DNA of 64,000 nt, taken from the NCBI GenBank assembly GCA_007026445.1, contig VDMD01000092.1:1-64000 (forward strand). The letters run 5' to 3'. The notes under the pieces are model-generated. The model saw only the letters and a program-made list of their open reading frames with translations, had not been told where the DNA came from and did not search any database. Shown here one piece after another: positions 42,801 to 63,794 of the stretch (its first letter is position 1; each line of letters begins with the position of its first letter). Both the position numbers and the translations under genes were made by a program. The DNA is from Schizophyllum amplum. Lineage: Eukaryota > Basidiomycota > Agaricomycetes > Agaricales > Schizophyllaceae.

Positions 42801-44395
42801 AACCCTATGTACTCACCATTGTTTAACCCCAGAGCGTTGCCCAATTCCACCTCCACCGCCTCGTCCAGGACCGCTACTTCAACGACTCATCGCTCGTTAC
42901 GGCGCCCTGCAACTCGCCGGAGCAGAAGGCGGTGACGCTAGGTGAGTCGTGATGCGGTAACTCTGCGTGAATCATGCGGCTAGACAACATGGCTGGACGT
43001 GTCGTGGAAGATGGACCGCTATAACCGTTTTCAAGCGCTACGGTTGGATGCTAAATGCCCTTCAGGCTGCGCACACGCCCAACAACTCATCTGGCAGCTC
43101 TTCAATGCGGTAGACAAGGGATTCGAGGCCTCGGGGGACACGGATGCGGAGTTTCTGGACGGTGAGTGCGACGGCTGGTAGCTGAGCTCGGATGCCTGGC
43201 ACCGGAGTTGCATGCCGTGGTAGCTGAGCTGGACGCCCGGCCGCATGTCCACTGTCCAGCGGATGCCTGGTGGCATATGTCCAGGGATGCTCATTTGACC
43301 ACAGCCATACGAACAGCCCGCGATCAAATGGATAAAGGGATCCACATAGGTTCCTGGGGACAGCTTCAAGGTGCGGATTAGGTGATTCTTGGGGAAGTTT
43401 CCCGTTCTTGAGGAAGTTTCCCGTTCTTGAGACAGGTTTCCCGTTCTTGAGGAAGTTTCTCGTTCTTGAGACAGGTTTCCCGTTCTTGAGGAAGTTTCCC
43501 GTTCTTGAGGAAGTTTCCCGTTCTTGAGACAGGTTTCCCGTTCTTGAGGAAGGTTTTCGTACTGACTTCCATGCGTGCAGAGTGGAAAATTGACATGGAC
43601 GACCCGGCGGACGTCCACCGGCACCTGTCGCACCTCATTGGGCTGTATCCTGGGTATGCGCTCGCCTCGTACGATGAGGAGAAGCGGGGATCGGATGTTG
43701 CATACACAAAGGCGCATGCTGCGTACACCAAGGCGCAGGTCCTCGACGCCGCCGCGGTCAGCCTCGCGCACCGTGGAAACGGTACAGGACCGGACGGGGA
43801 CGCGGGGTGGGAGAAGATGTGGCGTGCGGCGGCGTGGGGGCAGTTGGGGGACGCGGACGCATTCTATCATATCCTCACTGTAAGTCGGGATTTCCTTCGC
43901 TTGCTCACTGTCCTCGCTCAGTTCCCTGTGTCCCGCTCACTCTTTGACCCTCCGTAGTACGCCATCGCCACCAACTTTGCCGAGAATCTCTTCAGCGTGT
44001 ACAACCCCGGAGACGCGGATCCCATATTTCAGATCGACGCGAACCTCGGACACCCGGCAGCGGTGCTCAATGCGTTGATTCAAGCGCCCGATGTTGCCAC
44101 ATATGACGACGATCCGCTGGTCACCACCCTCCCCCATCCGCTGGTCATCACCCTCCCCCATCCGCTGGTCATCACCCTCCTCCCGGCCCTCCCTGCGCAG
44201 TGGCCCTCGGGGTCGATCACGGGCGCCAGAGTGAGAGGCGGGATGACGGTCGATATGGAGTGGAGTGGGGGAGAGCTGAAGAGTGCGAATATCACGGTGG
44301 GGGAGAACATTGTGCCGAGAGACGTCCAGGTGGTGGTGGGCGGGGAGGTCGTGCTTGAGTTCACGACGGCGCCGGGGATGGTACAGAGCATATAA
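39842..44395 (+). CDS. Secreted GH95 alpha-fucosidase-type glycoside hydrolase (intact copy)
   Basis: The start at 39842 gives MWTRWALILVCNLLAASQTS, a signal peptide matching that of the first copy, then GAPEGFPTSGNGLWYDAP. Core motifs in order: SLWSAGPFQNL, SYNGGNKEASDRETTK, WLDLDQAVARTLW, NPYIEWLLFNFGRYLL, RGTLPANLQGKWGAGYSNAW. After these come NINIQMNLWSAEMTGLD (Asn pair of the active site), EGWVTHNEMN, FGHTGMKLGDPQWANYP, HVWDHFDYTNDVSWWQAQGY (general acid/base region), QIDANLGHPAAVLNALIQAP and the end APGMVQSI. The frame is intact. Introns after about 41.7 kb are enlarged and repeat-bearing, and the C-terminal exon contains a 24-bp in-frame triplication (44,111-44,184). It faces the MDR gene tail to tail. 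The enzyme probably releases fucose from plant, algal or fungal glycans; substrate specificity is not deducible. Confidence 0.9.
43389..43556. repeat. Minisatellite in a GH95 intron (18-20-bp unit)
   Basis: About nine head-to-tail copies alternate between GAGGAAGTTTCCCGTTCTT and GAGACAGGTTTCCCGTTCTT inside one intron. The sequence has no counterpart in the matching intron of the first GH95 copy, so it expanded after duplication. Confidence 0.9.
44111..44184. repeat. 24-bp coding triplication in GH95
   Basis: Three tandem copies of a 24-bp unit (CCGCTGGTCATCACCCTCCC plus 4 bases) add 16 residues: PLVTTLPH-PLVITLPH-PLVITLLP, against a single DPLVVSLLP in the first copy. The frame is kept. Confidence 0.9.
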
Positions 44396-44564
44396 GCGGT
44401 GGCTGAAGGGCGTCTAGTTATTGTGCATCGAGTCATTGTGCAATAGTTGTACTACCAACCTACAGTTGTAGAAGTCGTACTCAGGGCGCTATTGCATACA
44501 CCGAGGGAGGGGTATCGGACCCGTTCTAAGTACCACTCAACGCAGCCTGGGTCTACCGCCATCC

Positions 44565-63100: not shown

Positions 63101-63794
63101 TTTGGGTGGGAGTGGGGTTTGCTTGGGTGGGGAGTGGGGTTTGTTTGGATTGGGGGGGAGAGGGCTGGTGTGCGGCGAGGGAGGGGAGGTGGGAGGAATG
63201 AGATGGGGCGGTAGGAGGAGAGCAGGGGAAGGAGAGGGAGGGGAGGGAGCGAAAAGACCGCAAAGACTGACGCATCCTCGCAGAACAAGACCAGGCATAC
63301 AAGCGCGCGCCGATCACGGTCAAGTTCGAGATCCCGTACTTTACGGTGTCGGGGATTCAGGTGAGCTTCTTTTGTTCCCTGATTATCTTTTCACTTCGCT
63401 CCGTCTCCCTTTCACCCCTCTATCAACTCCCTCTTCTTACCCTCGATCCTCGTCCACTTTTTTCTTCGTCTATCTTTCCCTTCGTCTTGACCCCTTTCCT
63501 CTATCCTTCGTCTTGACCCCTTTCGTCTATCCTTTGTCCTGCCCCTCATCCTCCCTCCTCTTCCCTCATCCTGACCCCCTTTCCTCTGTCCTGACGCCCA
63601 TCCCGTCCCTCATCCTGACCCCTTTCCTTGCCCTGACGCCCCCCCCCCCTCCCACCCAGGTCCGCTACCTGAAGATCGTCGAAAAGAGCGGGTACCAGGC
63701 GCTGCCCTGGGTGCGGTACATCACGCAGAACGGGGACGACTACAGCCTGCGGACGGCGTTGGAGAAGGGGGCGGCGCCGATTGTGCCGATGTGA
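54189..63794 (+). CDS. APM1: AP-1 clathrin adaptor complex subunit mu (Apm1)
   Basis: The medium chain of AP-1 recognises tyrosine-based cargo signals at the trans-Golgi network and endosomes. Sixteen exons were placed: 54189-54271, 55070-55124, 55664-55724, 55892-55959, 57874-57909, 58384-58478, 59209-59293, 59724-59783, 60399-60528, 60875-60920, 61373-61493, 62191-62250, 62416-62493, 62897-63020, 63284-63360, 63660-63794. They sum to 1,314 nt, giving 437 residues, the normal family size. The longin-like N-domain starts MASHLAILDLKGKPLIQRAY and includes LLALSKRNSNAAEIILFLHR and SIRDNFVIVYELLDEVMDGG. The mu-homology domain starts near GIRYRKNEVFLDVIESVNLL and includes KMKCYLSGMPELRLGLND, LSRFENDRTISFIPPDGEFE and ITVKFEIPYFTVSGIQVRYL, ending PWVRYITQNGDDYSLRTALE. 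The exons are intact, but introns total about 8.3 kb and each holds its own repeat. All borders are GT-AG. Confidence 0.96.
54618..55035. repeat. Pyrimidine minisatellite in APM1 intron 1
   Basis: About twenty copies of CCCTCTCACCCGTCTCCCCC (with extra CCTC insertions) make the intron an almost pure C/T strand. Confidence 0.92.
56285..57716. repeat. Satellite in APM1 intron 4 (about 1.4 kb)
   Basis: Imperfect units of about 22-30 bp are built on GCGTAGCGCGGTAGACGTCG and TCGTCCTGCGTAGCGCGG, with variants (CGAGCCGCGG, GTACCGCGGT). The units contain the palindrome GACGTC. The array lies inside the 1,914-bp intron 55960-57873. Its long open minus-strand frames are repeat by-products. Confidence 0.9.
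57717..57835. repeat. 22-bp tandem repeat in APM1 intron 4
   Basis: Six copies of CTACGGGGGGAGAAACGACT plus GA (or a GCACGA variant) occur directly downstream of the satellite, close to exon 5. Confidence 0.92.
58042..58066. repeat. Poly-C run of 25
   Basis: An uninterrupted run of 25 C (25 G on the minus strand) lies in APM1 intron 5, within a longer C-rich, ACC-rich stretch. Such runs form G-quadruplex or i-motif structures. Confidence 0.95.
59810..60000. repeat. T-rich minisatellite in APM1 intron 8
   Basis: About nine copies of TTTCTGTCGTTTTTTTTCCC-type units are present. Further down the same intron, 60,045-60,105 holds five copies of TTCCTTACCCGCGC-type units, and 60,170-60,290 holds CCTTACACCTCTCCCCTGT-type units. 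Confidence 0.9.
61970..62170. repeat. 21-bp minisatellite in APM1 intron 11
   Basis: About nine copies of CGCACGCTCACCGCTCCCGA plus ACC form a regular array just ahead of exon 12. Confidence 0.92.

Follow-up and report, generated by a model that had tools for sequence, protein, structure and literature searches.

What makes most introns and spacers in a short run of neighbouring genes fill with tandem repeats that are unrelated to one another? This question is raised by contig C302 (VDMD01000092.1, 99,462 bp; C numbers denote contigs throughout), which belongs to the two-haplotype assembly of Schizophyllum amplum (GCA_007026445.1; 49.65 Mb in 309 contigs). The window, meaning the whole stretch of DNA that was analysed, is C302:1-64,000, and a preliminary description drawn from its letters had reported a bloom of minisatellites at 43389..63200. 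Our analysis, which covered one strain, two haplotypes, one assembly and a small genome sample, identified a minisatellite island of ~22 kb (C302 ~41.8-64.1 kb) that spans two genes, MDR (a medium-chain zinc-type/quinone reductase) and APM1 (AP-1 mu adaptin), and the end of a third, the second GH95 gene. We tentatively interpret the island as a hot zone in which short tandem duplications arise locally, probably from recurrent DNA breaks, with selection acting on exons. The second haplotype is represented by contig C292 (109,372 bp), which was taken as such because its GH95 exon match was 96% and the compared stretches were colinear. Tandem arrays were called by Tandem Repeats Finder (TRF) with a minimum score of 50 and a minimum period of 7, and the island and its genes were placed as follows.

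41765..64000 (window end), no strand: minisatellite island, from the TRF cover profile; it fades ~150 bp beyond the window end, just past the APM1 stop codon
40772..44395, forward strand: second GH95 gene, 3' part, 11 exons modelled, from Pfam PF22124 and PF14498 on the upstream exon open reading frame (ORF)
44632..47465, reverse strand: MDR, 7 exons, 442 amino acids (aa), from Pfam
54189..63794, forward strand: APM1, 437 aa, 16 exons and 15 introns, 14 of them with arrays, from Pfam on the C292 database copy P0001

Arrays covered 47.8% of positions 41,765-63,794, compared with a mean of 2.8% and a maximum of 3.4% in 20 block-wise, composition-matched first-order simulations. Background cover was taken from both flanks, where it was 0.3% (1-41,764) and 1.8% (C302:64,301-99,462), from 56,135 bp pooled from six other genome stretches (0.5%), and from C1:1-20,000 (11.2%). 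In 2-kb bins over all of C302 the profile was that of a sharp island: 0-5% cover up to 42 kb, 18-99% from 42 to 64 kb with the peak at 50-52 kb, and 0-11% beyond, the 64-66 kb bin having 8% and the following bin 0%. The reported bloom is thus real, but its limits had been set too narrowly, the earliest arrays lying at 41,838, in a GH95 intron, and the end at ~64.1 kb. As the same description had stated, introns left of ~41.7 kb are short and free of arrays (two modelled GH95 introns, of 148 and 58 bp), and repeat units are mostly of 17-27 bp: the island holds 93 non-overlapping arrays with a median period of 23 bp, and 65 of these have periods of 17-28 bp. The island is bounded on both sides. 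A subtelomere, which had been offered as one possible setting, was therefore not supported: on either side repeat cover drops back to nearly zero before the contig ends, there is no rise in repeat density toward the contig end in C302, and exact five-fold CCCTAA repeats occurred only on C7, C172, C240 and C275 and on neither C302 nor C292, with the proviso that on a 99-kb contig the telomere may lie further out.

The second haplotype carries an island between the same genes (C292 48.2 to ~79 kb), and cover falls to 2.9% at 79-85 kb. Of the 29 introns in the island, 22 held arrays in C302 (APM1 14/15, MDR 5/6, GH95 island part 3/8) and 24 in C292 (14/15, 5/6 and 5/8 respectively), so the expansion of introns stands, but the statement that it affected nearly every intron is too strong. 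The eight GH95 introns inside the island measured 62-419 bp in C302, and the six MDR introns 380, 221, 210, 200, 442 and 52 bp, with arrays in all except the last. APM1, as first described, occupies 9.6 kb for a coding sequence of 1.3 kb (9,606 and 1,314 bp), with introns of 165-1,914 bp in C302. In C302 it has kept an open reading frame and sound splice sites (15/15 introns begin GT and end AG), and the predicted protein is 97% identical over its full length to the S. amplum database protein from the C292 copy. Three of its introns hold the following arrays.

54605..55032, forward strand: pyrimidine array with a unit of 22-26 bp in APM1 intron 1 (TRF)
56270..57827, forward strand: arrays of APM1 intron 4, with units mostly of 24-28 bp and after them of 22 bp (TRF)
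59813..59994, forward strand: APM1 intron 8 array, 23/48 bp, T-rich (TRF)

Comparison of the alleles showed introns of altered length between exons that hardly differ. None of the 15 APM1 introns was equal in length in the two alleles (totals of 8,292 bp in C302 and 7,124 bp in C292; intron 4 alone 1,914 vs 769 bp). When allelic introns were paired, their best local matches had 63-91% identity. The APM1 exons were 98.6% identical, with 18 differences among 1,314 aligned sites and one 1-bp gap, a nonsynonymous divergence (dN) of 0 and a synonymous divergence (dS) of 0.055; for GH95, dS was 0.094 inside the island and 0.106 just outside it (one 695-bp exon). Since every APM1 intron has changed in length while the exons are near-identical and dS is not raised, array turnover is uncoupled from substitution, and a regional hypermutation by substitution, or a general elevation of mutation, was not supported. 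Outside the island the contigs aligned on the left as a single 8.1-kb block (93.5% identity, 230 gap bases) and on the right as two blocks, one of 2.6 kb (87.1% identity) and one of 1.3 kb (96.2%).

The arrays are also specific to their introns. The mean share of 9-mers common to different APM1 introns was 0.03 in C302, in agreement with the earlier view that the arrays are unrelated and have no single invader, and the same intron in the two alleles shared a mean of 0.35. Because the 9-mers of an intron recur far more in its counterpart on the other allele than in other introns, each array family is local and probably predates the divergence of the alleles, yet has been strongly rearranged since. 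Separately, successive APM1 introns (54,272-63,659) seem often to switch between strongly G-rich and strongly C-rich sense strands, with much the same pattern in the two alleles. In exon 13 (C292:76,604-76,682) C292 has one base more than C302, which is either a frameshift or an assembly error; the database model of the C292 gene (P0001, 426 aa) lacks, at this exon, 11 residues of the C302 model, a warning for gene prediction in such DNA.

Transcription of MDR and of APM1 diverges from a shared spacer of 6.7 kb, in which the cover of the island peaks. Two features were mapped there.

48224..48557, no strand: 21/42-bp array upstream of MDR (TRF)
49258..51913, no strand: core array of the spacer, its units ~24-32 bp long and in many cases containing the 12-bp palindrome GTCGTATACGAC or GTCGTACTACGAC (TRF and pattern counts)

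The core array contained 24 copies of GTCGTATACGAC in C302 and 70 in C292, and 23 and 58 copies respectively of GTCGTACTACGAC; measured by its palindromes it extended over ~2.6 kb in C302 vs ~7.2 kb in C292, a nearly threefold difference, although array copy numbers may contain assembly errors. Genome-wide, 107 exact GTCGTATACGAC palindromes were counted, of which 94 lay in the core arrays of the two alleles and the 12 located elsewhere stood singly; among the palindromes located (106/107), the core unit formed an array at this locus only.

The preliminary description had also held that exons stay readable. TRF found no array in the exons of APM1, but exons elsewhere in the island have been touched, and every exonic array is in frame. 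All eight exonic TRF rows in C302 (five sites) and all seven in C292 (five sites) had periods that are multiples of three, counts that leave out rows lying partly in exons (one in C302, two in C292). Non-coding rows were spread over period remainders 0/1/2 as 59/56/49 in C302 (n=164) and 72/80/69 in C292 (n=221), the C292 exonic and non-coding counts taking only arrays that start before 79.0 kb. In C302 the coding arrays fall in GH95 and in MDR exons 1, 4 and 5, and include the following.

43,695-43,737, forward strand: GH95 in-frame exonic array, 21 bp (TRF)
44,112-44,180, forward strand: GH95 in-frame exonic array, 24 bp (TRF)
45931..46132, reverse strand: MDR exon 4 coding array, periods 21/48/69/90 bp, within a 53-aa insertion repeating LEPDQSVFVNGGS (TRF and alignment)
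47408..47463, reverse strand: MDR N-terminal 27-bp coding duplication, SGTVPSSIP/SGTLPSSIP (TRF)

The 53-aa insertion with LEPDQSVFVNGGS was absent from all six relatives aligned, which were chosen from 120 listed. Lengths of MDR exons 1-7 differed between the alleles by +12, -3, 0, -6, +54, 0 and 0 bp. The SGTVPSSIP/SGTLPSSIP duplication is whole in C302 and visible only in part in C292; beside it C292 alone has a different 27-bp in-frame duplication (PTTQRAWII twice). The possibility of a separate N-terminal duplication in each allele was narrowed by alignment of the alleles, only the PTTQRAWII doubling (C292) being allele-specific. C292 alone also has a ~24-bp duplication in the last GH95 exon, adjoining an array of the 24-bp ATCCGCTGG unit, of which C302 has more copies than C292. 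Duplications found only in C292 suggest that new ones probably arose after the alleles split, loss from C302 being the alternative. We read the exonic arrays as having been filtered by selection to in-frame events.

MDR also spans 2.8 kb in C302 vs 5.5 kb in C292, and ~2.4 kb of the C292 excess lies in one intron. This extra segment of intron 5 (C292:51,692-54,127) is largely array-free, has a GC content of 0.54 and is edged by a short repeat of ~17-18 bp; it is possibly an inserted element.

To separate the effect of place from that of gene, relatives at other loci are informative. The best-scoring MDR relative among 120 listed, S. amplum P0121, is 83% identical in alignment; its best genome matches, at C266:205,358-206,787, give a gene span of 1.43 kb, and the 3.4-kb locus has no TRF array. 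The other paralogue, located on C135 and C42, is 1.5 kb long and likewise lacks arrays, TRF cover being 0% at all three paralogue loci. As both MDR paralogues elsewhere are compact and free of arrays, it is place that matters and not the gene. AP-mu relatives on C64 and C79 are also compact. For the chaperonin family (11 loci) all nine loci with several matches spanned at most 1.8 kb, and for the actin family (12 loci) this held for eight of the nine such loci, the other being 2.7 kb long with a 1.8-kb gap (C13). The compact paralogues, the second haplotype and the exclusively in-frame exonic arrays support the earlier suggestion of a regional process acting under selection on exons.

How might such a process operate? 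We propose that, within ~22 kb, duplications of roughly 17-28 bp would arise often at arbitrary sequence and would then grow and shrink as minisatellites. The driver would be recurrent DNA breakage, most likely in the MDR-APM1 promoter spacer with its palindromic array, which could be a fragile site or a hotspot of meiotic breaks. Short stretches would be copied in tandem during repair, either by fill-in and end-joining or by slipped synthesis. Copy number would later shift through unequal exchange, and of the events that fall in exons only those in frame would survive selection. While the local excess of arrays and their turnover on unrelated sequences were observed directly, the break step is one that we infer; the location of a break-prone spacer marked by the palindromic array agrees with peak cover, and a recombination hotspot is plausible. 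Known systems offer such a route to short tandem duplications. Small tandem duplications originate at breaks with 3' overhangs (PMC8355091), and SPO11 double cuts in mice have spacings near 21 and 30 bp (PMC12918824, a preprint), which match the unit size in the island. Unlike the island, the first system used induced breaks, apparently in human and mouse cells, and in the mice double-cut events within single hotspots gave microdeletions, tandem duplications being found between adjacent hotspots.

Several observations weigh against a local, break-driven origin. Crossovers in the sister species S. commune are over-represented in exons and under-represented in introns (PMC4209137). The right side of the cover profile is a plateau that stops just past APM1, and seven of the 29 island introns in C302, five of them in GH95, are free of arrays. 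GC content at third codon positions (GC3) was 0.888 in APM1, and in GH95 it was 0.784 inside the island vs 0.823 outside; as GC3 of GH95 is not raised inside, strong GC-biased conversion there is disfavoured. Lastly, near the end of the 4.7-Mb C1 there are smaller dense minisatellite patches (8.5-9.8 kb and 18.1-19.2 kb) with similar units, ~9.5 kb apart, which look like parts of a ~9.5-kb tandem duplication; the process is therefore not confined to this locus.

The main rival explanation is structure-driven slippage that requires no break hotspot: G-rich and C-rich sequence with strand skew, together with palindromes, would form G-quadruplexes, triplexes or hairpins, which would stall replication or transcription and so lead to self-reinforcing polymerase slippage. 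We regard this as possible, but less probable than a zone of breakage. It would fit the distribution of G-quadruplex motifs, which in 6-kb bins numbered 41 and 25 over 54-66 kb, six in 48-54 kb and 0-2 in all other C302 bins, and the GC skew of APM1 intron halves, which reached 0.95 in size and was mostly of the same sign in both alleles. However, the 42-48 kb bin, with GH95 and MDR, has a single motif despite a cover of up to 36-43% in 2-kb bins and despite the arrays in its exons; moreover, skew and motifs may result from the arrays.

Passive accumulation, in which duplications occur at the ordinary rate and growth is tolerated in the local introns and spacers, for example because of chromatin state or relaxed selection on intron length, seems unlikely. 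Intact frame and splice sites in C302 APM1, despite introns of hundreds of bases, indicate that expansion seems to be tolerated. Tolerance of long introns does not predict that exons would be affected as well, including the MDR segment around LEPDQSVFVNGGS, nor does passive accumulation accord with the compact MDR paralogues or with a cover in the island ~100-fold above that of the genome sample. Equally doubtful, in our estimate, is the idea that the palindromic array is itself a cis-acting driver, a self-sustaining fragile or break site whose repair would seed minisatellites for ~10 kb to each side; were this true, moving the array would start a new bloom elsewhere.

An assembly artefact is very improbable. 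Assembly is difficult where repeats are long, the two haplotigs measure no more than 99 and 109 kb, and the extra base in C292 APM1 exon 13 may hint at error. Set against this, two separately assembled haplotypes, albeit from one assembly, have homologous but different arrays between near-identical exons, the exon order is identical in both, and all 15 APM1 introns are bounded by GT and AG. Weakest of all is an invading repeat family or transposon that spread through the region: many repeats are indeed crowded into a small space, but no common unit was found at different insertion sites, the intron-specific arrays show that no single repeat invaded (the ~3% of 9-mers shared refutes a single family within APM1), and genome-wide counts of the core pattern place its array at no other locus among the palindromes located.

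Just right of the island lie further features. The segment C302:65,997-70,288 (4.3 kb) corresponds to 0.3 kb in C292. Three similar ORFs with a shared SPTLD motif occupy the minus strand of C302 at 64.5-71 kb, and two long ORFs, C302:71,162-72,745 (minus strand) and 75,799-77,538 (plus strand), are close paralogues in opposite orientation.

How, then, does the island compare with systems already known? Classical hypervariable GC-rich minisatellites of humans have units of ~10-60 bp and vary in length between alleles, as the arrays of the island do, and are usually isolated; in the island, unlike these, arrays occupy the majority of introns and spacers across several adjacent genes. The preliminary description knew of no described system that matches, but three share much with the island. 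In rodents, Nlgn4 has tandem repeats in its introns, repeats in its coding sequence and raised GC and GC3 (PMC9005811), and the mouse pseudoautosomal region (PAR) combines many repeats with high GC, ascribed to very high recombination (PMC12597820). Like rodent and lagomorph Nlgn4 and the mouse PAR (PMC9005811, PMC12597820), the island has accumulated tandem repeats, in its own case unrelated ones in most introns of neighbouring genes, and like Nlgn4 it has repetitive sequence in coding exons, those of GH95 and MDR and none in APM1 (PMC9005811). Unlike both, it measures only ~22 kb, with repeat-poor DNA on both sides, on a fungal contig without telomere repeats; its genes are enlarged and not reduced in size, and GC3 of GH95 is not raised. 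Further, the mating-type gene families searched were on contigs other than C302 and C292 (STE3 on C241, C269 and C1; Homeobox_KN on C244 and C90), linkage being seen only within contigs. The third system is formed by the GC-rich 'missing' genes of birds, among which leptin and TNF-alpha have non-coding regions consisting mostly of tandem repeats with G-quadruplex motifs, and the genes of the island are enlarged in the same way (PMC6792250). The avian set comprises five genes reconstructed singly, with no bounded island between normal neighbours, and the available parts of that report do not describe in-frame exonic arrays (PMC6792250).

By analogy, the island works like Nlgn4, the mouse PAR and the avian GC-rich genes. 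Its membership in a recombination-driven region is at most plausible, since GC3 is equivocal and neither telomere repeats nor the two mating-type families searched matched on its contigs. Non-coding GC was 0.602 inside the island vs 0.482 outside, the latter from four short GH95 intron stretches. Among the titles and abstract openings listed in searches of the open-access literature, none described a comparable island, either in Schizophyllum or in any other basidiomycete. S. commune, a relative, can be crossed and its crossovers mapped (PMC4209137), and so crosses could directly test whether breaks cause such blooms. In our judgement, the clustering of minisatellites has been studied mostly in mammalian pseudoautosomal regions and in bird genes that are hard to sequence, where location, recombination and sequence are confounded. 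Compared with those systems, the value of the island is that it is a bounded 22 kb amid repeat-poor DNA, with both haplotypes assembled and with paralogues outside it as controls.

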